From: Priapulus caudatus
Lineage: Eukaryota; Priapulida; Priapulimorpha; Priapulimorphida; Priapulidae
Assembly: GCF_000485595.1 (NCBI RefSeq)
Contig: NW_014577471.1
Coordinates: 37,423-70,927 of the forward strand
DNA length: 33,505 nucleotides
Direction of reading: 5' to 3'
A model generated the notes under the pieces. It was given only the letters and a program-made list of their open reading frames with translations, had not been told where the DNA came from and made no database searches. Every line of letters starts with the position of its first letter. The first letter of the stretch is position 1. Positions 6,654 through 28,792 of this stretch are shown one piece after another. The position numbers and the translations under genes are program-made.

Positions 6654-8537
6654 GATTCATCAACGTTGGCGTAAAGTCTATTGCGTACACGGGAGTTTCT
6701 ACGAAGTACGTACGCAAAGCTCGTAAGTGCGATTCATCAACGCAGCGTAGCACCTGCGTACGCAAATGTTGATGAATTCCATTGTAAACCCACTACGCTA
6801 TCGTAGCTGCTGGCTGTGGAGGGGTGTGCCTAGCATAAACCAATCACACTGTGCGACACTTACCATAGGAACGCGAAGAACAACGACTCTCTTGTATTTA
6901 AACCATATGGCTCGTCTAATCGTCTCGTCTTGTCTACATGAGTGCTGGGGGATGTGATAGTGTCCTCATTTTCGTTTGTATGATTGCGTTTCAACACTCG
7001 TGAAAGCAGCACCACGTACACGTGCGTGCGTGCGTGTGTACGTACCCGTGCGTGCGTGTGTGCGTGTGCACGTACACGTGGGTGCGTGCGTGCGTGCATG
7101 TGCACGTGTGCGTGTGTGTGGTGTGTGCAGGTACACGTGCCGTGAGTGCGTGTGTACGTACACAGGGCGTGCGTGCGTGTGTACGATACACGTGCGTGCG
7201 TGCGGTGTGTAACGTACAATGTGCGTGCGTTCCCCAGTGCGTGTGTAGTACACGTAGGCGTGGCGTGCGTGCGTGTGTGCGGCGGTAACGTACACGTGCG
7301 TGCGTGCGTGGGTGCACAGTACACATGTGCGTGCGTGCGTGGTGCAGCGTACACATGTGCGTGCGCGCTGGCGTTGTGGCACGTAACACGTGCGTAGCCG
7401 TGCGTGGGCATGTAGGCACGTGCCGTGCGAGAATGTGTGTGTGCACGTACCGTTACGTGCGTTGTGCACGGTACACCCGTGCGTGCCTGTGGCAGTACAC
7501 GTGCGTGCGTGCGTGTGTTACGTACACGGGCGTGCGTAACGTGTGCACGTACACGTGGATGCGTGCTTGTGCGTGTACACGTACACCGTGCGTGCTGGCG
7601 TGCGTCGTGTAACGGTACACGTGCGTGCGCTGCGTGTGTGCGTGCGTGTCACGTTACACGTGCGCACGTGCGTGTGTACACATACATCGGCGCTGTCGTG
7701 CGTGTGCACGTACCACGTTGTGCGTGAGTGCATGTGCATCGTCGGGCGGTGGTGTGCACGTATACGTTGCGTGTACCGTGCGTGCGTGTGCACGTACACG
7801 TGCCGTGCGTGCGTGTGTACATACATTGGGCGCGCCGTGCTGTGCCGTGCGTGCGTGCATGTGCACGCTGCGTGCGCGTGGTGTGTGCAACGCTACACGT
7901 AGCGTGCGTGTGCACGTACACGTGCGTGCGTGAGCGTGTGTACGTACACAGGGCTGTGCGCTGCATGTGCACGTACACGCTGCGTGCGTGCTTCGTGCAA
8001 CCGGTTGTGCGAGGTGCGTGCGTAGCACGTACACGGTCGCCTGCGTCGGATGTGCACATAACATGCGTGCCGTGTGCACAGTAACACGTACAGCGTGTAG
8101 CACGTACACGGCTAACTACGAACCGCTTATTAAGAAACAATGCCAGGTGGGGGAGCTATAGACATAAAGAAGCGTCAAAGGCGCCGCCTGGTCTGTGCTA
8201 GTATGTGTAATTATTATTCTATTTTTAGTTTGAGTAGTAATTTTATAATTGTTTTGCTCAAATAAAATAATGATGCTGCGGTATTCTGGAACACACCTGC
8301 GGAAATTTCGAGTGTTACGACACGCTCGTCAGCTCGTGTTAGAAGTTACGCAAGGGTTTACGTAAATTTTAGCTTGATGCAATGCGCACGCTAAACCGGC
8401 CATCGCCTTCGCGTTACGCGAAATCGACGCAAATTTGACTAATAGGCATAGTGTTGATGAATGGCGCACATAAGCAACGTCGAGTCTGCGTACACAAGAT
8501 TTACGCAAAATATTTTGCGTACGCAGCTTGATGAATC
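6654..8537. mobile_element. Probable non-autonomous TIR element (GATTCATCAA ends) enclosing a satellite
   Basis: The left end reads GATTCATCAACGTTGGCGTA and the right end, in reverse complement, GATTCATCAAGCTGCGTACG. Further GATTCATCAACG or ATTCATCAAC boxes with GCGTACGCAAA motifs recur subterminally (6731, 6769, 8455), as in many MITE families. No transposase is encoded. About 1.1 kb of its interior is the tandem array listed separately. I did not find a convincing target-site duplication, so the boundaries are tentative. Confidence 0.5.
7010..8112. repeat. ACGTACACGTGCGTGCGTGC satellite, 1.1 kb, alternating purine-pyrimidine
   Basis: Variable units of roughly 25-45 bp contain ACGTACACGTG followed by (CGTG)n and GTGTGCACGTAC. 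Nearly every step alternates purine and pyrimidine, and ACGTGCAC/GTGCACGT palindromes recur. Copies differ by many single-base indels, probably sequencing noise. Many overlapping Cys/Val/Arg or His/Thr/Ala-rich frames exist on both strands and are not genes. Confidence 0.9.
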
Positions 8538-9956: not shown

Positions 9957-10735
9957 TCAACGACGTGAGCTGACTCCTGTACCTACTGCGAGCCCGTTGA
10001 CTTTTCGTAAATAATAAAATGCCCGGCCGATGCATTTGGCATCGAAGAGAAAAAATTTCTGCATTTTCACTTGCTGTCGCAAGTCAACGAGTGCGTCATT
10101 CAGTAAACATTTCCGCAAAAAAACTCGCTTCGGGAGCCAATGTTTACATGCCACAGAGCCATCTCTTGGATCATTTTGGATATCCTCCAACATGTTTACT
10201 TCTTCCTTAGTTAAGTTAGTCCATGCTTCACTGTTATTTAGGAAGAAAGGTAAAACTGTGTATTCGCATAATTTCACTCTTGCTTCTATAGTATGATTTC
10301 CACAATTTTGCTCTTTTGCCCATAATAATTATTTCCCTTAATAACCTACATTTTTCAGTTCGGACTTAACATAGCGTTATAACCTCCTATATCATTAATT
10401 AAATCCCCTAGGTATGAATATTTGGTGCATTTTTTTATTACTTGGTTGCCTATTAATCCCCTCGATCCTTTCTTTGTTTGTGAATTTTATATAACCATTA
10501 TATTTGTTTTGTTCATATCAAATTCTAATCTTTTTGATTCAGCTAATCTGGGGCTAAACCGACCAGGCCCTCCGACTGTTACACGTCGTAGGAACAGTAG
10601 TCAATGTAGTGTTAAGCGAGAATGGAACTTGTGGCTAATCTGGAGCATAACTGAGCGATTTTTTACTGTTTTATAATCTCCAATTTCTAGAATATCGTCC
10701 ATATAATCATTGTCATCTTCTAAAACTACAGACGG
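9957..10735 (-). pseudogene. Decayed non-LTR (LINE-type) reverse transcriptase fragment
   Basis: Reading the minus strand downward from 10735, broken frames give a YMDD-like sequence (NDYMDDILEIGDYKTV), then LEFDMNKTNIMV, then KCTKYSYLGDLIND, and a final open frame (10277-9957) with PFFLNNSEAWTNLTKEEVNM. The order 'catalytic YxDD - K-T-x-I-M-V - YLG - SEAW.LTK..' matches the palm-to-thumb part of LINE reverse transcriptases. Several stops and frameshifts and the missing N-terminal half show that it is dead. An 82-bp insertion interrupts it at 10552-10633. Homology is judged by eye, and the class of LINE is not resolved. Confidence 0.6.
10552..10633. mobile_element. 82-bp micro-element with 10-bp target-site duplication
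   Basis: Sequence from GGCTAAACCGACCAGGC to GGAACTTGTG is flanked by perfect copies of GCTAATCTGG (10542-10551 and 10634-10643). It interrupts the LINE fragment. Its core, GACCAGGC(C/T)CTCCGACTGT followed by TACACG, recurs near 12059-12095 and 33248-33290. This shows that the family moves as a unit. It encodes nothing. Confidence 0.65.
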
Positions 10736-10739
10736 GTGA

Positions 10740-11107
10740 GGTGTGTTACGAGAATTCATTGAGAAAACAAGTAATCAAGAAGGCAAAATTGAGAGCAGCA
10801 CTTGCCTCGCCCTACAAAACCATTAAAAATATATTTGTAATTAATCTCGCACCGTGAAACGTCAGTTCACGCCTGGAATTTATGCTCTGTCAGACTAACA
10901 AGAAGTCACACGAGGCGAGAGTTACTGCAGAAAAGAAGGATGAGGCCATTGCAAATTTGAAGTCAATGCTTATTCGTGCGGAGGAGGCTGCGGACAAGCT
11001 CACCACTCAGCTTGCCTCCCTTCGGGAGACCCACCGACGCGAAGCGGAGGTGAGTGCAAGCGACAGAAGCAGGAGTGATGCTGCTGCGCATTCGTAGAGG
11101 TTTGGGT
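10740..11107 (+). repeat. Inverted duplication, copy A (partner 14693-15060)
   Basis: All 368 nt align without a gap to the reverse complement of 14693-15060. The 154 nt before and 58 nt after the coiled-coil exon are identical, while the exon itself differs at 27 of 156 positions. Identity ends at GGTTTGGGT, where a TTAGGG-like tract begins in this copy only. Confidence 0.95.
10894..11049 (+). CDS. Coiled-coil exon, copy A (52 codons)
   Basis: A phase 0-0 exon lies between the acceptor TTTATGCTCTGTCAG and the donor GCGGAG/GTGAGT. It encodes a charged helix (TNKKSHEARVTAEKKDEAIA ... LASLRETHRREAE) with heptads, typical of a coiled-coil segment of a longer structural or tethering protein that I cannot name. 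Its inverted partner at 14751-14906 keeps length, frame and splice sites but replaces 16 of 52 residues. The exon starts at the acceptor, not at the upstream ATG codon (10882), because the partner shares the same intron. Adjacent exons on this strand were not found within several kb, so this may be an isolated duplicated exon rather than part of a working gene. Confidence 0.6.
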
Positions 11108-11168
11108 TAGGGTATAGGCTTAGGATTAGGATTAGGATTACGGTTAGGGTTAGGGTCAGGGTATTAGG
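11107..11168. repeat. Short interstitial telomere-like tract (TTAGGG/TTAGGA variants)
   Basis: GGTTAGGG, TTAGGATTAGGATTA and GGTTAGGGTTAGGGTCAGGG follow the end of the inverted duplication directly. Several units are degenerate, so the tract is not a recent telomere end. Confidence 0.75.
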
Positions 11169-11533
11169 CAGGAATATTTATATTTTTTTTTACATTTGTA
11201 ACTTTTCCACTTTTCCCATTTCTTTGGCCGTCCAGTTTCAAAACGGACCGTGCAAATCACGGCTGCACGTCTCGCTGGCTAATACGCATACACACACGAC
11301 AGACACTCACACAGTCTTGACTATACAAACAGACATGCATATATATACACACACACGCACACACATATGCAGACATATAGATATATTCATGCATTCGACA
11401 AATCCCCCCTAACTTCGCGCTGCCGCTGGCTGGTTAATTGTCACGCGCCTTGCTCTTGCTCGCGTAGACCACAGCAAAGACGCGACTCTACAATGAGTTC
11501 CTTCAGTAACAGTACCGTACAGTTAGATGGGAC

Positions 11534-14402: not shown

Positions 14403-14692
14403 GAGACCAATGAATCCTACTTATATATCCCATCTACATCCCATCCACTGAAACTTCCAAGCTAATCTACGTCTGTCTCACAGCTAATTAACCCATACCC
14501 CATCAAAGAAAAACTCAAGATATAAACACGAGAGAAAGTCTCGTTTTTAACGTCTTGTGAAATAAAGCTGAAAGTTAGAAAGAAGGTTGGAAAGAAGCAC
14601 TATATGTTGCGACGTGGTCAAACCCAGCCGTTTATCGCTAACGAGGAGTGATGAATACTTCTCACTGAAGCCCCTGGCGCTCCCACACCTGC

Positions 14693-15060
14693 ACCCAAAC
14701 CTCTACGAATGCGCAGCAGCATCACTCCTGCTTCTGTCGCTTGCACTCACCTCCGCTTTGCGTCGGTGGGTCTTCCCAAGGGAGGCAAGCTGAGGGGTGA
14801 GCTTGTCCTCAGCATCCTCCGCACGAACAACCTCCGACTTTAAGTCGGCGATATCCTCTTCCATCTTTTCGGCCCCAACGCTCGCCTCGTGGAACTTCTT
14901 GTTAGTCTGACAGAGCATAAATTCCAGGCGTGAACTGACGTTTCACGGTGCGAGATTAATTACAAATATATTTTTAATGGTTTTGTAGGGCGAGGCAAGT
15001 GCTGCTCTCAATTTTGCCTTCTTGATTACTTGTTTTCTCAATGAATTCTCGTAACACACC
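14693..15060 (-). repeat. Inverted duplication, copy B (partner 10740-11107)
   Basis: Reverse complement of copy A with no indels. The 212 flanking bases are identical and all 27 differences fall inside the exon. Beyond GGTTTGGGT this copy continues into GCAGGTGTGGGAGCGCC instead of the telomere-like tract. Confidence 0.95.
14751..14906 (-). CDS. Coiled-coil exon, copy B (52 codons)
   Basis: A phase 0-0 exon has the same acceptor (ATGCTCTGTCAG) and donor (GCGGAG/GTGAGT) as copy A at 10894-11049. It encodes TNKKFHEASVGAEKMEEDIA ... LASLGKTHRRKAE, a charged helical segment. Another coiled-coil exon (15119-15268) lies 212 nt upstream on this strand in a compatible phase, so the two together encode about 102 residues of continuous coiled coil. 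Of 21 changed codons relative to copy A, 16 change the residue. The protein family is not recognised. Confidence 0.65.
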
Positions 15061-15118
15061 CCACTCGTCTCCCCGCAGTTGCGGATGTTGGTGTGATCAC
15101 GGCTATAGACCCACTCAC

Positions 15119-15985: not shown

Positions 15986-16745
15986 NTCTTTTTTATAGTA
16001 TAGATTTTTATAAAAGTTAAATTATATTTTAAAATATGCATGGATGAAAGAAAGACATTTGGCGCACGCTGGCGAGAATATTTTGTTTAAATTCCAGGGC
16101 TGTCGAGTTTCCAAGTGCCGACCCCTTAACCATAGATATATAACAACACATGTATAATATATGTGTTTGTAGTGATATCTATGCCCTAAACGCTATTACG
16201 CAAGCGTGCTACCACTTGCGGCCACCAGCGCAAGCTGTCAACACACGTACTACATCGGTTAAACACGTAAGCTACATCGGTTACACACACACACTCCTAC
16301 ATCGGTTAAACACGTACTAGCACTCGTTAAACACGTACTACCATTCCGAATATCGTCGACGCGTACGTCGAGCGATTAAGATTTGTGGGGCGCAACTGTT
16401 GACGGCACAGACGCACGGACCGCAGACGGACGAGACGATGCATGCGATTCTACAAGCTGCATCTGACTACGTCAGATGAGCTAACAAATTATAATAACAC
16501 GCTGTATAGAGCCTTACTTATCATCTTGATGCGAATGGTGGTGTGACGTGGCAGTACTTTGAGACTCTACAATATAAAACTCTGAGGGAACAACTTATTT
16601 ATAAACCACACAAATACTGTAATAAACTGACAAAATTTATTACAGTCATGCGCCGTAATTGTCGGTCATAGCGTAAGTCATGCGTGTATTGTAGCAGGAA
16701 GCGGACGTCATCGCGTGTATTGTCGCAGAGCTGGCGTTCATCTCA
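15986..16745. repeat. Assembly join (N) followed by an error-rich second copy of 13745-14400
   Basis: A single N at 15986 is followed directly by a copy of the 13745-14400 repeat that differs by very frequent one- or two-base insertions and deletions, for example AAATATGCATGGATG versus AAATATGCAGGATG and CCCCTTAACC versus CCCCTAACC. That error profile, starting exactly at an N, suggests raw-read gap filling. The segment may be a real second copy or a misplaced duplicate. Confidence 0.7.
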
Positions 16746-16808
16746 GCTGTTCCCAGAAGCCGGCTTAATGCGAGAGAAGTTGAGGTGAGCTGTATCTCTG
16801 TGTGAAAA

Positions 16809-17140
16809 TAAATCCAGGGAGTCTGGATATCCCTGGATATCCAGGGATTTTATTATTTACCAAGTCTGGATTATCCTGGATTACCCAGGACTTTAAAGGT
16901 GAAAAAAAATCGAAAAAAAAAAAATCCAGGAAAATCTAGGGATATCCAGACTTGAAAATATCTAGACTGTCTAGATTTTCCTGGACTTTTTCTCTTGAAA
17001 ATCCAGACAGTGTAGATATTTCAGGACTTTTATATTATCAAAATCCAGACTGTCAAGATTTCCCTGGACTTTTTGAAAATGTCAAATTACAGGTCTCAGT
17101 AAAAGTCCAGAGTGTCTGGATTTTCCTGGACTTTTATAAA
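16809..17140. repeat. Left subterminal repeats (TCCAGACTGTCTGGATTT type)
   Basis: About seven spaced motifs combine AATCCAGAC, GTCTGGATT, CCTGGA and palindromic GGATATCC, each followed by CCTGGACTTTT. They lie between the terminal repeat and the transposase 3' end. This is the position where En/Spm elements carry the binding sites for their accessory protein. Confidence 0.85.
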
Positions 17141-17242
17141 TTTGTGAATGACAATGAATTTATCAAAAATTCCAAACATCCTAGACTTTAATAATGCTAT
17201 ATGACCATTTTCTCCACTTCTATAGTACTTTTTGACAAAATA

Positions 17243-17287
17243 CAGTCGAACCTCATTACAACGAATCGTTGTATCAAGATTTGACTG
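17243..17287. mobile_element. 45-bp pogo/Tigger-like palindromic micro-element
   Basis: CAGTCGAACCTCATTACAAC on the left and, in reverse complement, CAGTCAAATCTTGATACAAC on the right meet at an ACGAATCGT centre. TA on both sides (17241-17242 and 17288-17289) fits the target duplication of Tc1/mariner-pogo elements, whose ends typically read CAGT(N)AACCTC. It is nothing but two terminal repeats back to back. Confidence 0.6.
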
Positions 17288-17351
17288 TATCGTCAAAAAC
17301 CTCCAGAGCAATACACAAAAATAAAAAAGTTGTTTTCATGAAATATAATTG

Positions 17352-17357
17352 TTTATT
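17352..17357 (-). terminator. Poly(A) signal AATAAA for the transposase gene
   Basis: TTTATT on the plus strand (AATAAA on the minus strand) lies about 150 nt downstream of the transposase stop codon at 17506-17508. Confidence 0.5.
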
Positions 17358-17505
17358 GTTCAATTTAGAACAGCCCAATAGAGTGAACAAAATTAAGTGT
17401 TAATAAATTATACACACAACTTATTCCATCTGAATCTTGAAATACATTTTACATTTCATACAATTTCCAATTAGCTCCACAGTGCACCCTACTCAATAGA
17501 TGGTC

Positions 17506-20500
17506 TTAATTAGTAAGACGATGTAGATTGGGTAGACGGGCTATGCATGCATATTCTGAATTGCCATCAAGATACATGAGTTTTTCGACAAAATTTTTTA
17601 CCATATGAAATGTTGGTGGCTTATTGAGTTCTGGTTTGTGTACCTTAAGCAAGTGATGAACAGCCTTATGGACAAATAACGAGTCAGAATTCCGATTTAA
17701 TTCATCTACTACTGCAATACATTCTTCTTTTACTTTATGAATAAGAAAGTAACGTACTGCTACAACAATTGACGCCTGTCCATTGTGTACTAATGCAAAA
17801 TTGCAGACACGTTTTTTCATTCTGGAATACTCTTGACCGAAAAAAACCTGATCATCGGCCACTACTCGGAAAACTTTGTAAAAGTCATCAACCCTGACAG
17901 TATCACCTAATAAACACTCAAGTGCCGGTAACATTTTCAAATCTATTTCAGTCACATGCAGTCGACCGACAGCTGAACAATCCTTGAGCTTTGTAAGCTT
18001 AACTGGTAATCTCTGTGAACCTACCATATGGTTGACAAACTTTTGAATTGTGGGGTTGTCAATTTTATCAATTTGTTGCTGTATGATTTTTTGCGATTGA
18101 AGAATTTTGAGTGCCTGTGTGCATACATTGCCCGAACCATGAACATTGTCCAACAGGTTACCGTTCATATCTTCATAAGCAAAACAAGACCATGCCCACA
18201 TGGGTCCCCACAATTCAACATAATCAGCCAAATGGGCACCAACATTGTGGACATTTAAACCACAGTTCTGAAGGCCATACAAGTCTTGAAATTGTTGATA
18301 GAACGATTTCAAGTTTTGTTTTGCCTCTTGAAGTTCATTTGAAGTAATACTGTCACGTAGCAGTATGTAGATAGAAGACACCAGCAGAGCAAGATTATCG
18401 TAGTATTGCTTAGGTAATATGCCATCTAAACAGGGGATAGAATAAAACAGTAACCATACCTCAAACTCATTGGCTTTCCAATGAGTAAGATGATCTTTCA
18501 GCCCACGGGGCATCCGGCTAATACAGTCTAGTGGCTTCATTTTCAGAAGTCGACCATCAATAGTAGATATGAGATGCATAATTGAATATGGCATCTTTTT
18601 GTACTTTTTGTTAAACCATAATGACGCAAGTTTTTTTACTACACCTAAGAGAACACCGTGCATGTAGTCTGGCACTGTACCTTCAATAATATCAAAATAA
18701 CCTATGCCTAATAGAGGCGATACATCTTTTACTCCCAGCACAGCATTACCTGTACGACGTGCTGTGAGGGCAGAATCGAGAAACGACTCTTTAGTGCGCT
18801 TATTTATTTCAGTAGAAAAAGGATATGATCTCACATTGCCCTTTCCACTTTTAACAACCTTTCCAGGCTCCTCACATGTAATGCAACCCCACTGACCATT
18901 GTGATGTGCCATTTCAAGGAGAGGAGCCTTGGCCATGAGATCTGCTGTTCCGAGAAGCAAGACCGCTTTACACAATTTTTCTTCCTCATTTACTACTATA
19001 TCAAAACCAGAATCATACATGGAGTTCATGTCTTTCGCAAATTGTAGAAAGTATTGGCTGAATATTGGCTTTCCTTCACCTTGCCATAAACCCCAAAGCA
19101 ACATATTCTTCCGAGAGAAACGCAGTTTAGGTGGCAACTCATTCACTACCAGAAAAATAGGCCATAGATTAACATGCGATGATTTGAATAGAAGCGCACC
19201 ATCTGTATTATAACAGAGTGTAATGGTAGTATTTGTACCTGATTTGAAATTTGAAGTTGCCTTTTTATAGGCTGAACCATCATAAATATCATGCATTACT
19301 TCTGTGGACTGCTTTCTGGAATGTATGGCTTGCCAAATCGATGGACGGGATAACAATTCACCAATTTGTTTTTCTAGAGGTAAAGTGGCAAAGAAACAAT
19401 TTTTAACACACTTCTTTTGTTCCTCGATTGAACCTTTGTATCTCATCCCTTGACATTTACCTTTGGAACATTGCACTATACTTTTATCATCTGGAAAAAG
19501 AGTTCCACAGATACTACACATGTCATGAAACTGAATCTCTGTCTCAATGTCACCAATTGACTCGTATACTTTTTTCAGACTTGGAATATCTGAGTCTGAT
19601 ACTATACTAAAAAGATCTATCATATCAGAAGCGGCAGCATGATTGAGTTTGTGCCTTAAAACAAATGAAATCACTGCTATGTTTTTCTGAATGTCAAGAT
19701 CAATATAATCCGGTGCTTTATCCTTTTTCACAACATGTAAAAATTCACTAGTATCTATATCTTCTTCAGAATCACAAGGTTCATCTGCTACACAATCAGA
19801 AGGTTCATCTGCCACACAGTCATGATAATTATCAACACCATCAGTGTCTGAAATGTCTGAGGTCGTATCATCCATTTCATAATTTTCATCAATACATGTA
19901 TTTGATGTCAATGTTGTATCAACAGAAATATCAACAGGCTCATCACCTGTCGATAAAGCAGCTATGGGATCAGTTTGCTCAGCTTCGTACAAGTTAAAAA
20001 TGGTTTTATCATTACCTGTACACTCTTGTTTCCTTTTAGGTGTAACAGACATATCTACATTTTCTTCCATACCACTATCAGTATCATCGAAACATGCACT
20101 ACTTTCACCAAACTCCCATCTTCTTTTGGTAGTGTATGGTATGGGAATCTCAGTATCACTAAGATATTCTTTGTATTTTCTCTTCTGAGATAAAACACCT
20201 GAAAAAAATAAAAATTCATTTTTATTAAAATATACATTTTTATTTACAATGATGTAGTACCCCTACAACAAGGACCTATACATTGTAAACCTAAGGCCAA
20301 AAAATACACATTTCAGGCCTTGAAATTCATCAAAATATCCTTGGATAGGGATGAAAAATATGATTAATTCACTATGGATTTGAGAAGATCCAAGGACAAA
20401 ATCCATCAAAATGTCCTAGGAGGGAAAAATTTAATTTCTAGCCCTGACATTTTATATCATTTGGTATCAATCTTTTGAAAATATCTGTATCTTTTGAAAA

Positions 20501-21789
20501 GATTTTATCACACTGAATTACCTTCGATTCTATGGATATCAGTCAGATGAGTCAAAAATCGTTGTTTTCTGCTCAATACTTGCTGGCATAGTGGACATTT
20601 GAATGAACCATTTTCCAACTGGTAAACTGTTATGTCTGAAATGGAAAGATACAGTCATGATTACAACAAAACAATTACAAATCATTCAGGCTGAGGTAAG
20701 TCAAGGGTAGGTATAACGTATCTTGTATTGTATATTCTACCCAAAGACTGTGTAAAGGATAGAGCATTTTCCATGAATTCTCATACCTCATAAGTGTGAT
20801 AAGTATATTCCAATGCAAGTTAATATATATTGATGCGTATCGAAGGTGTACAGAAGTGCTGCGAGTTCATGAATCATGAGTAAAATTGGATTCGTGAAAT
20901 GGTGACTGGCTATGGACGGAGGAATTAAATACAATGAATTCGGTTTTCTATAGTTTAATTCATTTGGAACTAATCCCGCGGAGCGGGTAAAGGCTAGTTT
21001 AATATAAAATAAAAGGTTACCTGATAAGTCAATATCATCTATCCTAAATTCAGTACTTTTCCAAACCATGTTATGTTCAGTCTTGCAATGGCTAATCAAA
21101 CGTTGTTTTCGGGATAACACCTGTTCACAGGCTGGACACTGCCATTTATCACCTTGAAAATAAAAATATTGGTATACATGAATGTATATCGGCTTATAAA
21201 TGACATTTGGTTAATAGCCCTATAAGTATATCTACACTAGTATTTTAGCGACCCGAACCGGTTTAGTCTAGACCGGTACGGCACGCTATTTCATCATCGA
21301 CCGTGTATACTTAACTAGTTTTTAACATTAGCGTTTTGGTCCGGATTGTGGGCCTGCAAATTTGGCGGTCTATTTCGGAACGGAAAAAGGCGAGCCATTT
21401 GAGACCGGTTCGGTATTTTTCCTACTCCTAGTATAGACGGTCACGAAATTTGCAAATTTTCCTAGTGTAAGTAGATGGGGCTAATGTTTGTACTTTTCAG
21501 AAAAGCACTTGTACTTGTAGCCAGGATCACAGAATTTACTTTTACTGAAAAAATGTTTAACAATGTCAGTGAAAATTATACAATAGTCAATATTAATCAA
21601 TAATGAAATCCATTGATTTAAAAGCATAGTGAAAACTTCAGTCTGATTAGGTCTACAGAACGACGCCTGACAGCATACGGTCACGGAACAAAGTGGGCTA
21701 AAAATAAAAACTGCATTGCCACTGTGACCTTCAAAGCAACAGGCTAAATTTTACTTACCAAGTACAACTGATGATATTTTTTCATCCAT
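17506..21789 (-). CDS. Zinc-finger En/Spm (Tnp2-like) transposase, 989 aa, 4 exons
   Basis: Coding exons are 21789-21759, 21152-21021, 20635-20522 and 20198-17506, with GT-AG introns, all phases consistent and no internal stop. The start at 21789 (MDEKISSVVL) is the only ATG in exon 1 that gives the long frame. Residues 16-37 and 68-89 are two C2H2 fingers (C-x2-C-x12-H-x4-H), each in its own exon and sharing QVLSRKQR. An acidic linker follows (about 170-245), then a Cys-rich probable zinc site (C320, C323, C336, C341, C356, C360), then the catalytic part. Candidate acidic residues are D425 in YNTDGALLF, D512 in LGTADLMAKA, D603 in VPDYMHGVLLG and E768 in FAYEDMNG. The H-x-C-x2-C patch HHNGQWGCITCEEPG follows D512. 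These match the Tnp2/En-Spm pattern of sponge, cnidarian and plant CACTA transposases. Which acids form the true DDE triad is inferred. The product should bind the ends and catalyse cut-and-paste transposition in the nucleus. Confidence 0.9.
20300..20455. repeat. Intronic repeat shared with the BEN gene intron (24090-24165)
   Basis: ATCAAAATGTCCTAGGAG with the following AAATTTAAT and TCTAGCCCTGACATT recurs at about 24105-24163 with small changes (ATCAAAATGTCCTTAGGATA ... TAAGCCCTGATATT). It sits in the transposase intron between the second finger exon and the catalytic exon. It is a small AT-rich element present in both genes of the transposon. Confidence 0.55.
21229..21436. mobile_element. 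Diverged MITE-like insertion in transposase intron 1
   Basis: TCTACACTAGTATTTTAGCG followed by ACCCGAACCGGT faces, in inverse orientation, TCTATACTAGGAGTAGGAAA followed by AATACCGAACCGGT. The body is unusually GC-rich for the region (GACCGGTACGGCACG). The arms match imperfectly, so it is an old copy. Confidence 0.45.
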
Positions 21790-22200
21790 TTTCAGTTAAG
21801 TCAGTGTAGCAGTGTCAGCAGACAGCAGTAGCCTGGGTTTGTCTATATTCAGGCCGGTACAGGAGATAATTTGCATATTTTGTCACGTGGCTTGTGTTAT
21901 AACCAATCGGATGTAATCGCGTGTTCGTGACGTCACTTCCAGCTGTATCGCAAGCGATCTGGGTTTGTACAGTACCCAAGTACAGTACAGTATTCAGGCC
22001 GGTACAGGAGATAATTTGCATATTTTGTCACGTGGTTTGTGTTATAACCAATCAGATGTAATCGCGTGTTCGTGACGTCACTTCCAGCTGTCTGCATCGC
22101 AAGCGATCTCATGTGTAGACAAACCACTGAGACAAACCTGTTCGCTTTTCACTTTGTTGTCTATTATATCCGATTTATACATCTCTATTCATCTTTCAAA
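21790..22200. promoter_or_regulatory. Shared bidirectional promoter with a duplicated ~115-bp block
   Basis: The 411 bp between the divergent start codons contain two direct copies of one block (21846-21960 and 21991-22109). Each has, in the same order, an octamer ATTTGCAT (21869, 22014), an E-box CACGTG (21884, 22029), CCAAT (21903, 22048) and a full CRE TGACGTCA (21928, 22073), followed by CTTCCAGCTGT and CGCAAGCGATCT. The copies differ at few positions and by one CTGC insertion. The CRE and E-box are palindromic, which suits firing in both directions. The motifs are seen; that they are used is inferred. Confidence 0.75.
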
Positions 22201-25200
22201 ATGAAACAAATTATTGTGTTTTTCGAAGCGGATTCAACTGTGTCTAGACTCACGCCTAATGCGTGTTTTAGGCACGAAGAAAGCAGCAAGAAAGAAGAAA
22301 AAGAATTTCAAGCTGGGGAAAGAATTTTTGTAAAATGGCGCGTCGGGCATAAAATTGAAAACTTTGACGCCGTTATTTTAGGCGTGTTTGGTAAGTTTAC
22401 ATTGACTCACTTCTCGAAATATCTAGATTTATTATGTGAAAAATCAAAAGATTCTCCCCATCATCATCAATCATAACAATAATGATATTGATAAGGCCAA
22501 AAATTAAAAAGAAATATATATGTGGTTCCGATTTCCTTAATTTTTTTTCATGGGTAGGGTAGGTAGGAAAAAGTTAAAAAATTTTATTGGACAATCTGAA
22601 TTTTGAAAACCACAACCAAAAACTTCACGGCGACAACCTTCTTCGCCGTGGTCGCCATTTTGCACCAGCGACTGATTTACGTCATTACGACACTCGGCAG
22701 CGAACGATTTCCGGTTATTCACAGTTAAAAACGTTTTGAACTGTATACGTACGGTATTTTTTATTTCTAATTCTATACTTATTAACAACATTTTTATTCC
22801 TACATGAATGACGATGTTTATGAATGTGTAAAGGTGATACATTAGAAAAATTGAAGTCACATGATTTATATGTTCAAAATGACGGCGGCTGTATAAAACA
22901 TGAAAAAACAATTTTCAGTCGCAAGGAAAATTAACGAGTTGGTCGGGAAATCGAACCACACATATTTTTTTTTGGCCTACTAGGCATTTGAATTGAATTG
23001 TTTGAATCTACTACGGCTAGCGCTTTTTCCAACCGATTTCAAGGCGACGTCCTTAAAATTAAGTACGATATATTGAAAACAAATTTTTAAACTTACAAAT
23101 AAATCCTTATTGACCTTAACCCTTACTCTAAATCAAACACCAACCCTTACCCAAAACCTAATCGTGACTACTTATCCTCGCTGGTGTGGTGTAGTGTACT
23201 GTACTGTAGGTAGACGGACAACAGTGAAAGTATCGGGAAATTAACAGACAATCGCAGTGAATCGGAAAAGTACCGAGATTTTACAGCTCTAAGTGTAGAT
23301 AGGGCTAAAGCTAATATTTTGTATGGCCTACTAAATTAATAAATAAAATAATAAAGGCCATTATTGATCATGATGATGTAAATTTGTTTTCAGATACTGT
23401 TGCAGTGGCCGAAAAATTCCTCAGTAAAGTCAGAAAACCGGTACAAGATTATTTAAGCAGATACGAGCCGATTGATGGACTGTATAGTTATATAAAATCC
23501 CTATCACCGAGTAAAACAGCACCATCAAAGGACAGTAATGATGTGGAGGATATTAACCCTTTACAAAAACAACCAAGGAAAAGAAAAGTAAAGGCGCCGG
23601 AAATTGAAGGTAAAGTTTTAATGAACATTTTTTAGATATACATAAAAATAGATTGTGACTTTTAATGGCCAGGAAATCCAGCTGTTTGCACGTAAAAATT
23701 TCATGCAACAAAAAATTATCGGACAAAAGACACTTTACTTCTACGCGTCGTTGTAATTATTTTGAAATGTTCTGCGAATGACTACTGATTTTGATAATTA
23801 GACTCGGACATAATGGGACATCTTAAACCACGTAGCAATTTATGACGCATTATCCAACTGACCGAGTCAAATTTCAGTTTATGTCGACGTATCCTCTGTC
23901 GCATTAAATAATTTTTTTTAAATACATGTAAAAATTAAAAATGGAGAATAAAATAAGTTTTTGCGCTATGTTAGTACCCTAAACCTTCTCATTTCATACT
24001 TTCTTTATCATTTGATACATCATTTTCTTCTAGTATAAAAAAACAAAATACAAAAAACAAACGATCAGAAACTACGAATTAATTTTAAATGGCCTAATGT
24101 ATATCAAAATGTCCTTAGGATATAAAATTTAATAAAATATTCTAGCCTAAGCCCTGATATTGAAGATATTGCTATTTCAAGAATTTTCATTTTAATAAAT
24201 AATTTGACATTTGATTTGTGAAAAAAATTTATGAACTAAATATTCTTGTCATTCATTATTCAAAAAATAATTAAATACCTCACACAACGTTGTGCACAAA
24301 TCCATTTCGATGTCCAATTAAGGATGACGTCAGGAAAGTTGTATGCTTTACAATTTATGTGATTGACGATTTATATGACGTCAAAAATATTACTCATTAC
24401 TATTCCTGTCACATATAATACAGTAAACTTCACTTATAATGTATCAGTCGGGACCAGAACAAATATATGTTATATCCGATGAAAAACATAAGGGTTATAG
24501 TAAATTGGGACCAAATAATTTCTATGTTATAAGTGATTATATGTTATATCTGACTATGTTATAAGCGAAGTTTACTGTATTTAATTTTTTCTTTTTTAAA
24601 TTATTAAATAAACTTGTAATTGATTTGTATTATAGATACTGATAGTGATGACTATGTAGATAGTATCCTGGCCATGAGACGGCAGTCATCGTTTATAGTC
24701 GATGAAACACCAGCATCAGCTGCAGCCAACGAAAAACCATCAGCTGCAGCCAACGAAAATCCATCAGCTGCAGCCAACGATAGATCAGTCAATAATATAA
24801 ACATTCCGTCAACAAATCGTTTCATCGCGACATCACCCATCCATCATCAAAGTCCCAATACGTTCAGCCATTCTTCATCACCAGTAGCATCATCCTCGTA
24901 TAACCACAACAATGATTACAGTAACTATGACGGCAGTTTTTGTCAGCTGCTTAATAGCACTGCCAACACACTCTATGGTGATACGACATATCAACCAACA
25001 CAAGATGACAGAATAAGACAGCTAGAGGAATCTGTCCGATTATTAACAGAAAGAGTAGTGTACCTGGTTAGTATTATTTACATGTATTATGCTATTAAGG
25101 CTTCACAAAACATAATCACAGTCTCAACTGTTAGTATTTCGACATTGGATTGATAAGGTTTCTACGACCATATAAATTAAATTTTCTAACTTCTGGGTAA

Positions 25201-26501
25201 CTTCAAATATCATGCCGAATAATTGGCAACGACGACATAATGCCACTTATAACCCAGGCCTATAATCCTAATGGATAGAATGATAAATAGAAACAGATAT
25301 TTAATCTGTCAAAAATCTAGTTTCATGCCACCCTTTAACTAGCATTAAAGATATACTCGAGATACTCAAGATTGATCATCTTTGTCAATCCAAGAATTTT
25401 CTAATGTTCATCTTAATAATTTTCAGGAGTCCAGAAATGATTTTGGTGACATTTCGACAGCAGGAGCTAAAACATTTTCGAAAGGACCAGATCCACTCTT
25501 TAATGGCAAAACAAAGGTACGTTTTTTTTAAACCAAGTCCGGCTTGAATAGCATAAGTGGTTTTCAGTATAACGAATAACGATAATAATAGAAATGAACT
25601 ATAAGAACCACGGTCTGAATTTATGGCTCCCATTTACAGCATTATAATGATATTATCCAATGTTTGCTGCAGTGCATTGAATTATCAGTCCATGGTTTTT
25701 ACATTTAAAAATGGCAGACTTTTTTCAATATGCCCTAAAATGTTTTGTACTATTACAATATGCAATATGCCCAATATATTACAATATTTTTTACAATATG
25801 CCCTACATGTATGCCAACAACAAACAACCGTGATACCCCTATACCATGCTACGGGTTAGACGGACTTGAACATATATTTTTGTTAATACAAGCATCGTTT
25901 TTTTCACAGGAAGAGTTGAAAGATATGATTAGGGATCTACCTATGACGAAAGGTGTTAAAGTCCTGTTTGAAACGGTTCTCACTAAGGAGGATGTCTTGA
26001 ATTGCAGCCTTGGTGGAGGTGGTGGCGCGAAAAATGAAAAGAGACCCCCAATCAGCAAAGAAAAGAAAATTGTTTTAGATGGTATGTATATCAGCTTTCT
26101 GAACATAATGCAACTCATAGTTTTTACAGAACCTGACTTGGCCATTTCAGATGACATTGAGATAAAGTATAAACTATCGTATCAAAGTCCCTTGCTTGAG
26201 ACAAAGATAGAAATTGGGAGAAAGCAGACAGTATTTAAAGTTTGCTCTATTTTCAGTTTAATTGGGATCCTTAATCATTAATGTGTGAACAAAATCCATC
26301 AAATGGCCTGATTTTCGGGTTCCTAACTTCCTATAGCTTGTATTATTAATGGTGTTTATTGATATTGATAATGTTTGTACATGTATTTTTTAAATATGTT
26401 TTTTAGAAGTATTATCGACTGTCTACAGCAGCGCCAAAACCGGGGAACTGGGAACAAAGATGAGAGATAGACTGAAGCTGTTACGTCTCATGTATAAATA
26501 G
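22201..26501 (+). CDS. BEN-domain DNA-binding protein of the transposon, 397 aa, 6 exons
   Basis: Coding exons are 22201-22390, 23394-23609, 24636-25066, 25427-25516, 25910-26081 and 26407-26501. All introns are GT-AG, phases match at every junction, and the stop is TAG. N-terminal residues 37-63 (FQAGERIFVKWRVGHKIENF then DAVILGV) resemble the Tudor/SH3-like module often found before BEN domains. A basic QPRKRKVK near 125 is a probable nuclear signal. Three 8-residue repeats SAAANExP lie at 163-186, followed by a Ser/Asn/His-rich linker. DDRIRQLEESVRLLTERVVY (about 258-277) is a coiled coil. Residues 310-395 (MTKGVKVLFETVLTKEDVLN ... EKKIVLDEVLSTVYSS) have the BEN pattern. BEN domains bind short palindromic DNA. 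Its position in the element suggests an accessory role like plant TnpA. Domain assignment is by pattern and not by search. Confidence 0.78.
22495..22977. mobile_element. Harbinger-like MITE in BEN gene intron 1
   Basis: The left end GGCCAAAAATTAAAAAG with ATATGTGGTTCCGATTTCC is mirrored at the right end by GGCCAAAAAAAAATATG with TGTGGTTCGATTTCC in reverse complement. Flanks are TAA (left) and TAC (right), a near match to the 3-bp TWA duplication of PIF/Harbinger elements. The interior is non-coding. Confidence 0.55.
24421..24577. mobile_element. 157-bp Tc1/mariner-pogo-type MITE in BEN gene intron 2
   Basis: The ends read CAGTAAACTTC(A/G)CTTATAA in both orientations, flanked by TA on both sides (24419-24420 and 24578-24579). 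Internal TATGTTATA(T/A)(C/G) motifs repeat. It lies just upstream of exon 3 and leaves the splice acceptor intact. Confidence 0.8.
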
Positions 26502-26505
26502 GAAG

Positions 26506-26511
26506 AATAAA
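26506..26511 (+). terminator. Poly(A) signal AATAAA for the BEN gene
   Basis: AATAAA begins 5 nt after the stop codon, giving a very short 3' UTR if used. Confidence 0.6.
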
Positions 26512-26649
26512 AACTTTTCAAGTAAAATTTAGTTTTTTGAATGTACATAATTATCTGATCAACAATGCAAAAAAGACTTTTATTAGAACTTCAGTAAGAT
26601 TTTGTTTGTTGGGGGATTACATGATAAGGTTAGTACTGTTTAATTTGTT

Positions 26650-26940
26650 TTCATGGAATTTACCAAATTTTTTTGAAAATTTAGGTAAATTTTATCATGA
26701 TACGGTGTTTTGATGGAATTTACCAAAATTTTTGGAAAATTTAGGTAAATTTGATCATGATAGTCTTTTTATTGGACGCTGCGCTTCTGTTATTTGTTTT
26801 GATGGAATTTACCAAAATGTTTGGAAAATGTAGGTAAATTTGATCATGATAGTCTTTTTATTGGACGGTGTTTTGATGGAATTTACCAAAATTTTTGGAA
26901 AATTTAGGTAAATTTGATCATGATACAGTCTTTTTATTGG
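26650..26940. repeat. ~70-bp tandem repeat with internal palindrome, four copies
   Basis: Four copies of TGGAATTTACCAAAATTTTT followed by GGAAAATTTAGGTAAATTTGATCATGATA. Three copies also carry AGTCTTTTTATTGGA. Each unit holds the inverted repeat TTTACC(T)AAA / TTTAGGTAAA. The array sits between the BEN gene's poly(A) signal and the right subterminal repeats. Confidence 0.85.
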
Positions 26941-27272
26941 AAGTCTGGATAACCCTGGATATCCAGACTCCTTGACAGTAATCCAGACAGTCTGGATTTC
27001 CCTAGATTTATTTAAATGAAAAATCCAGACAGTCTGGATTTCCCTGGATTTATTTAAATGAAAAATCCAGACAGTCTAGATAACCCTGGATATCCATACT
27101 GCTAACTACTACCCTGGATATCCCTGGATATCCCTGGATATCCCTGGATTTCCTGATTAACCAATACCACAATTTACCACAGAATCCAGACTTTTGAGAA
27201 GTCTGGATTTCCCTGGCTATCCAGACTTCAGCAGAAGTCCTGAGAGTCTGGATATCCAGGGATATCCAGACT
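26936..27272. repeat. Right subterminal repeats (ATCCAGACAGTCTGGAT, GGATATCC)
   Basis: Repeated AATCCAGACAGTCTGGATTT palindromes alternate with CCCTGGATATCC, including a run of four CCTGGATATC units near 27112-27147. This mirrors the left end of the element. Confidence 0.87.
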
Positions 27273-27285
27273 TATTTTCACACAG

Positions 27286-28341
27286 TTGTCTGTATTTGAT
27301 TTTCTCATCATTCTTTTTCATTTCCTGCTCGTTCTCCAATTTACCATCCTCTGTGCTGTTGGTTCTCTTCCGTAGCAATTATGTGTGCGTGCGGACGTGC
27401 GTGTCTCTGTGTTATATATACATTTACATATAGACATAAAAATTACAAATAATTATGCGTAATATGCGTTTTATTAGATCAGTGTTCAAAACACATGATT
27501 AATTCACAATGCTATTAAATTTCAGCGATTGTATGACAGTCACACGTTGGAAAGAGTAATACTCATCAAAAAACACAAACATTCACCATCAGGTTGTATG
27601 ACGTAAGAAGGTTTCATGGCTTTCACAAGCAATTCCTAGTTCAGCTTCAATCTGGAAAGAAGCTGTAACAGTTGAGTTGCATTCGTTGGCATTCCAGCTC
27701 CATGTTCACATGTGTACTGTGTGCTCGCGTTTGACAGAGCAAGCTGCTATACATGTGAGTCTGACAGTCGAGATATACTTTCTGCTTACATCTGTACGAC
27801 ATCTCTCTAATTATTATACATGTTGTTGTGTTATAGAGCTAGTGTCTTCAGAGCGTAAGCTTCACTCACTTCAAATGTTACATTTGAATGATTTTTTTTC
27901 GTGTGATATTCATGTGTGTCTTCAAAGTACGCGAATGCGAGAAGGTAGCATCACAAGATGCGNGTCTCGAACAGCTTTATTTGTGAGACAAACGAAACAC
28001 AGTGAAGACTGAAACATAACAGAAGTCAACAGTATAAGTAACCTGGTTAGAACCAGAAACTTTACACTAAGACTGTAATATATAAATTGAAAAAGGAGGA
28101 AAAAGTGCAAAGTTATAGTGGTTTAGTAGAGTGTTTGAATCTGAGCAAAAAACCTGCATATAAGGAAATATGCAGTCATACCTGCATATAACTCAAGGAA
28201 AATGGCAAAAGTGTGAACAGATGTCTGTTATCACGAACATGTATCATTATCATGTATAAAGGGTTCATGGCATTACTTAGAGATCTGTCAAAAACTAGCA
28301 AAGAATCTGTCTGTACGTAATTAACATTTCAATATTTCAAG
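27286..28341. other. Unassigned stretch between the transposon and a TTAGGG array
   Basis: No gene could be supported. Short frames lack splice support or recognisable domains. One N lies at 27963. Confidence 0.4.
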
Positions 28342-28342
28342 N

Positions 28343-28459
28343 TTAGGGGTAGGGTCAGGGTTAGGGTTAGGGTTAGGGTTAGGGTTAGGGTTAGGATTAG
28401 GGTTAGGGTTAGGATTAAGGTTAGGGTTAGGGTTAGGATTAGGGTTAGGGTTAGGGTTT
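28343..28459. repeat. Interstitial TTAGGG array (~19 units)
   Basis: Starts directly after an N at 28342. Most units are perfect TTAGGG, with occasional TTAGGA or TCAGGG. It is oriented with the G-rich strand on plus and then passes into unique sequence, so it is internal and not a chromosome end. Confidence 0.9.
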
Positions 28460-28792
28460 TTGCATCATGATATCTGTCCCCACACCATAGATTAATTTTT
28501 GTGGATCACAATGCCTATAGGCTATATATAGCGCGGCGACACATATATATTTAGTGTGGGTGTTAGTGTTGGCGGTGTTGGAGTGAGGGTTACCTTTATG
28601 GTTAACGTTTTGAACGTCATCGTCAACGTTATCACGTGACCTCCCTCCACGCCCGTGGGATAGCAACACCCTAGTCAGTAACACTAACAGTGCCCGATTT
28701 TAGACTTGTAATATAGTGTTTGCTTACTTTATTTTAGGTTAGCTCACGCAGCGAACATCTACAGCTCTACTATAAGATGTATAACGTAAACC

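Follow-up and report, generated by a model that had tools for sequence, protein, structure and literature searches.

V(D)J recombination derives from a two-gene transposon in which a cutter, RAG1, teamed with a chromatin reader, RAG2. In the animal elements TransibSU/ProtoRAG the two genes, RAG1L and RAG2L, are called head to head in the available text of PMC4411706. The CMC/CMCT clade, comprising EnSpm, Mirage, Chapaev and Transib, is defined in the accessible part of PMC12730594 by C(2)C and H(3-4)H motifs; the same text gives the usual CMCT termini as 5'-CA..TG-3' 'in most cases' and includes fungal EnSpm elements that carry TET/JBP genes. Animal CACTA-like elements have already been published, among them SmTRC1 of Schistosoma, with CCC termini (PMC1636069, available portion), and PIF/Harbinger elements encode a transposase and a separate protein (PMC2836001, available portion). 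Here we describe a locus of Priapulus caudatus in a stretch of 33,505 nucleotides (C411:37423-70927; hereafter the window, whose positions are used below) from an assembly scanned as 385 Mb in 2952 contigs. It probably represents a DNA transposon with two divergent genes: a CMC transposase with a predicted RAG1-like core and BAH domain, and a 397-amino-acid partner likely to bind DNA or chromatin.

The element is 10.49 kb long in the window sequence, with the two genes wholly inside its inverted ends (Table 1). The original prediction had proposed in-phase spliced genes for proteins of 989 and 397 amino acids, and both models reproduce exactly, with GT-AG boundaries at every intron; its reading of the larger product as an En/Spm-type transposase with two C2H2 zinc fingers also stands. 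This protein matches Pfam Transposase_21 (PF02992; E = 6.5e-08, 32.5 bits against a cut-off of 28.6), with DUF1258 at 20.5 bits, under its cut-off of 33.1. Its D-D-E residues hold C(2)C and H(3-4)H between the second D and the E, the pattern that defines the CMC/CMCT clade, and the fingers lie in exons 2 and 3. A predicted model of the transposase matched the RAG1-type catalytic core and, at residues 738-888, the BAH domain fold, so that the enzyme is predicted to consist of a RAG1-like core with a BAH tail of the histone-reading type. Judged by its enzyme sequence, the element belongs to the CMC clade; because of its ends, we do not file it as a canonical CACTA element.

With CACTA/EnSpm elements (plant En/Spm and animal TRC) the locus shares Transposase_21, the D-D-E site with C(2)C and H-H, subterminal repeats and inverted ends, but its ends read CTGTG..CACAG rather than CACTA or CCC, no target-site duplication was seen, and its second product comes from a divergent gene of its own. 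The likeness to TransibSU/ProtoRAG would lie in the predicted RAG1-type core, whose catalytic and zinc residues are spaced alike in both, and likewise in two head-to-head genes. Unlike those elements, however, it has a Transposase_21 enzyme with a BAH-like tail, its ends and duplication differ, and its second protein has no kelch or PHD match of the RAG2 type among its Pfam rows at E up to 10, with HMMER filters applied. It resembles PIF/Harbinger in encoding a transposase and a separate protein, whereas its transposase matches Transposase_21 and has no Harbinger match among its Pfam rows. The fungal TET/JBP elements are similar as CMC transposons with a chromatin-acting passenger but differ in cargo and kingdom.

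The matching inverted ends and mirrored subterminal repeats that had been predicted were recovered. The 14-mer CTGTGTGAAAATAA has a single direct copy, at 16798, and a single inverted one, at 27272-27285; all 18 TCTGGAT/ATCCAGA words of the window fall within the two ends (16798-17200 and 26900-27285), where the subterminal motifs run in both orientations, as in CACTA/EnSpm elements; and local alignment of the ends scores 55, whereas none of 200 shuffles exceeded 30. Pairs of random 500-bp zones set 10 kb apart in this repeat-rich window shared an inverted 14-mer in 92 of 3000 cases, so we place weight on the 14-mer and the shared motifs together. The spacer between the start codons contains two nearly identical tandem modules (21846-21960, 115 bp, and 21991-22109, 119 bp), each with ATTTGCAT, CACGTG, CCAAT and GTGACGTCAC, the last of which occurs twice in the window, both times in this spacer.

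We infer that the element works like other two-component transposons, with a cutter and an end- or chromatin-binding helper. A single 411-bp spacer, in which a CRE/CCAAT/E-box module is duplicated, would drive the two genes. The N-terminal pair of zinc fingers, the partner protein or both would bind the GTCTGGAT repeats in both ends and join the ends; the D-D-E site, held by a RAG1-like zinc clamp, would cleave the DNA at its CTGTG ends and insert the excised piece at another site; and the BAH-like domain may tie the complex to certain nucleosomes.

Results on the ends, on copy number and on the second protein weigh against this proposal. The termini are neither 5'-CACTA nor 5'-CA..TG-3', and no target-site duplication lies directly at the 14-bp ends. 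Further genomic copies with the same genes or right end, for which the original prediction had proposed a search, did not turn up: the right 701 bp matched only their own locus in the genome, the second gene only its own six exons in a genome search at E up to 1, and none of the other matches among the 44 to the transposase exceeds 46% identity. The closest relative, at that identity (C1221:64574-66805), carries seven in-frame stops, and a surrounding stretch of 20 kb, with about 8.5 kb on the upstream side, holds no match to the second protein.

The 397-residue protein itself is 100% identical to the NCBI model LOC106810099 of P. caudatus. No other homologue was found in 5.77 billion proteins at E up to 1, and none of residues 262-397 at E up to 10, in a search that needs shared 5-residue words. 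A viral contig scan gave 69 pattern matches and no confirmed relative. The protein had been predicted to be of BEN type, a label that the alignment tests leave without support. Pfam BEN (PF10523) gave no match at E up to 10 with HMMER filters applied. Of our own profiles, built from solved BEN domains and pieces from the Priapulus genome, the one from three solved pieces reported no domain and the 15-piece version did not report the protein; the solved-piece profile with a probe of our own was equalled by 414 of 5000 shuffles, and the BEN profile alignment by 55 of 400 (91 of 400 with a fixed end). Among 12 pairwise tests the best was matched by 51 of 2000 shuffles, uncorrected, and the one against the C352 exon described below by 177 of 2000. 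In hhalign 9 of 150 shuffles scored as well as the protein, whereas true BEN pieces (six of six tested, from the 15) reached 88.9 to 96.9% probability. A result of 1 in 5000 shuffles with our own probe was set aside as biased, the probe having been written after the protein was seen, and a single-sequence structure model (predicted local distance difference test, pLDDT, 37.4) was dropped as evidence. Because the unbiased tests do not pick it out, BEN is a guess for the window copy; a BEN gene does face a distantly related CMC transposase elsewhere in the genome.

That other locus lies on C352. The Pfam BEN model has 16 genomic matches at E up to 1, of which 13 exceed its cut-off, and the best (37.6 bits; E = 1.8e-9 for the exon alone) is on the minus strand at C352:128461-128610, divergent from a CMC transposase on the plus strand at C352:131986-133323. 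C1061 carries a 4.0-kb stretch with 93% identity to the part of C352 that includes this BEN gene, and also a second, partial copy. The first exon of the BEN gene on C1061, as we read it, has on the opposite strand, 363 bp away, a divergent exon that looks by eye like a transposase N-terminus and had no match in tblastn; the spacer lacks TGACGTCA, CACGTG and CCAAT. Farther on is an acidic exon, with 74 bp identical to sequence adjoining the C352 transposase, and then the contig ends. Because the 74-bp piece is inverted and about 2 kb are missing relative to C1061, the C352 locus is, as the sequences compare, rearranged or misassembled. When coordinates are compared with those from three transposase searches, the other 13 BEN matches are all more than 5 kb from any transposase match. 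Three BEN matches with long open frames, perhaps a BEND3-like host cluster, span about 12 kb at C181:313390-325531, and near the C352 BEN gene (L044:4821-5109) a CCCATGGG palindromic repeat array sits beside a retroelement-like frame.

The transposase tree sets C352, C896 and C266 in a clade separate from that of the window transposase (support 0.996), and the closest relatives of the latter are C1221 and P0002; the pairing of BEN and transposase is either ancient or arose twice, and the C352 case could be chance. For six relatives, drawn from the 43 other transposase matches, we read 20 kb of surrounding sequence each. The BEN profile found a BEN exon in one of the six, C352, itself part of the profile, the next best among the matches listed having E = 1.5. 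No inverted ends were found around C1221 or C896, nor around C352, where the right side meets a gap; inverted 13-14-base matches at C678 (three), C266 (two) and C349 (two) were taken as chance. An N-terminal exon likeness seen by eye at C266 and C678 was discarded (98 of 300 shuffles; no Pfam match over cut-off), as was a BEN-like exon at C266 (no BEN match; 75 of 150 shuffles in hhalign).

Whether the second protein is a genuine BEN accessory that has diverged strongly, homologous to the BEN gene beside the C352 and C1061 transposases, is close to evenly balanced, the balance tipping slightly against it. The two genes hold the same position and orientation, with start codons 411 bp apart in the window and 363 bp apart on C1061, and have a common exon order of N-terminal, coil, linker and BEN or BEN-like exons, the last exon of C1061 not having been found. 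In both genes the BEN or BEN-like exon has phase 0 at its start and phase 1 at its end, and exon 1 likewise ends in phase 1, where the C1061 donor is our own reading; the strongest stretch in hhalign coincides with the BEN start motif. Thus the order of coil and C-terminal module and the BEN exon phase resemble the C1061 gene, but BEN proteins (BANP, NACC1, BEND3, insensitive) have no significant sequence match to the 397-residue protein. Besides the failed tests above, shuffles equalled the exon 1 pair in 4943 of 5000 cases globally and 1617 of 5000 locally, and the coil pair in 1142 of 2000; the remaining inner exon phases differ, and the transposases sit in distant clades. The dearth of homologues and of other genomic copies would instead suit a passenger without any role in transposition, unrelated to the transposase and either captured from the host or newly formed. 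We consider this somewhat unlikely, since the second gene is enclosed by the ends and has its spacer in common with the transposase, and since a divergent BEN gene faces a transposase at C352 and transposase-like exons at C1061.

A partner gene within a transposon, as we propose, must also be set against the flanks, which do not bear out an intact insertion or recent activity as originally predicted. The host repeat at the right end has at least 42 other matches in the genome (40 of 68 candidates scored); among those listed, 10 begin exactly at 27286 and 8 begin five to seven bases inside the element. Ten compared copies align mutually upstream of 27286, with sequence absent from the element end. 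These copies bear out the right edge with one reservation: two of the ten (C1312 and C1313) have CACACAG at the boundary, so that the final seven bases of the right end may be host sequence. We rejected a right end at 27288 (..TG-3') with a TCT target-site duplication, as most of the ten copies have TTG there. The left flank is repetitive at 16200-16728, and its unit 16309-16728 recurs, 88% identical, at C411:51426-51822 and C2522:8439-8843. In none of the ten copies does the upstream sequence match this flank, which is not the other half of the right-flank site; hence no target-site duplication was seen, and recent activity gains no support. With no second copy besides, the insertion is likely old or rearranged. 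The mismatch could be explained by an insertion that was rearranged or aberrant, or else by an assembly join, which may have hidden a normal insertion with its duplication. Such a join is unlikely: although the ten copies speak for it, 16690-16812, across the left junction, has one genome match, itself, and unread bases occur only at 15986, 27963 and 28342. The lack of a second copy and of a duplication, together with two open frames, might also mean that the pair are host genes retained in a dead transposon. This we regard as very unlikely, because the inverted ends and both subterminal arrays are still recognisable, and their preservation is not expected under host function.

Table 1. Features of the two-gene element and its right flank, in window positions
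Feature	Position	Strand	Basis
Left terminal inverted repeat CTGTGTGAAAATAA	16798..16811	+	exact inverted match to right end
Left subterminal array, GTCTGGAT / ATCCAGAC repeats	16812..17132	.	motif positions, direct repeats D19
Transposase exon 4: acidic linker, predicted RAG1-like core, BAH-like C-terminal domain	17506..20198	-	Pfam, model matches, splice model
Transposase exon 3 (second C2H2 zinc finger)	20522..20635	-	splice model, finger residues
Transposase exon 2 (first C2H2 zinc finger)	21021..21152	-	splice model, finger residues
Transposase exon 1 (start codon)	21759..21789	-	splice model
411-bp spacer between divergent start codons, likely bidirectional promoter	21790..22200	.	sequence
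Second gene exon 1	22201..22390	+	splice model; identical to LOC106810099
Second gene exon 2	23394..23609	+	splice model
Palindromic MITE-like repeat, second gene intron 2	24417..24581	.	sequence comparison
Second gene exon 3, low complexity, ends in likely coiled coil (by eye)	24636..25066	+	splice model
Second gene exon 4	25427..25516	+	splice model
Second gene exon 5, resembling BEN only by eye; phase 0 at start, phase 1 at end	25910..26081	+	splice model
Second gene exon 6 and stop	26407..26501	+	splice model
Right subterminal array, GTCTGGAT / ATCCAGAC repeats	26943..27271	.	motif positions
Right terminal inverted repeat, inverted CTGTGTGAAAATAA	27272..27285	-	inverted CTGTGTGAAAATAA
Host interspersed repeat starting at the element's right end	27286..27897	.	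other copies continue upstream with different sequence

Of the intronic miniature inverted-repeat transposable elements (MITEs) that had been predicted, one palindromic repeat was found. Elsewhere the window holds a degenerate minisatellite around CTAACTAGGGATGCTGCTAACTAACGTG (84-1905), about 1 kb of GC-rich ACGTACACGTGCGTGCGTG-like repeats that stay open in several frames (7004-7987) and interstitial TTAGGG-type telomere-like arrays (11086-11172 and 28321-28461). A 389-bp inverted repeat, 91% complementary and 3.6 kb apart (10730-11118 and 14682-15070), may mark the ends of another mobile element.

A pairing of BEN with a transposase of this type is not described in the available portions of the papers that our searches turned up, PMC5704228 among them, in a search that left subscription papers and Repbase outside. 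We advance only tentatively, as a doubtful proposition, that the locus represents a second, RAG-independent lineage of animal two-component transposons with the RAG1 fold, in which a transposase with a BAH nucleosome reader of its own shares a promoter with a BEN-type partner that binds chromatin. One animal would have retained this arrangement in CMC clades that split deeply, and the pairing of a RAG1-type cutter with a chromatin reader would have arisen more than once. If animal CMC transposons do pair a RAG1-type, BAH-tailed cutter with a BEN or other chromatin partner, the question of why cutters recruit chromatin readers would become testable outside immunity, and such elements would offer a source for BEN and BAH genes entering or leaving host genomes.
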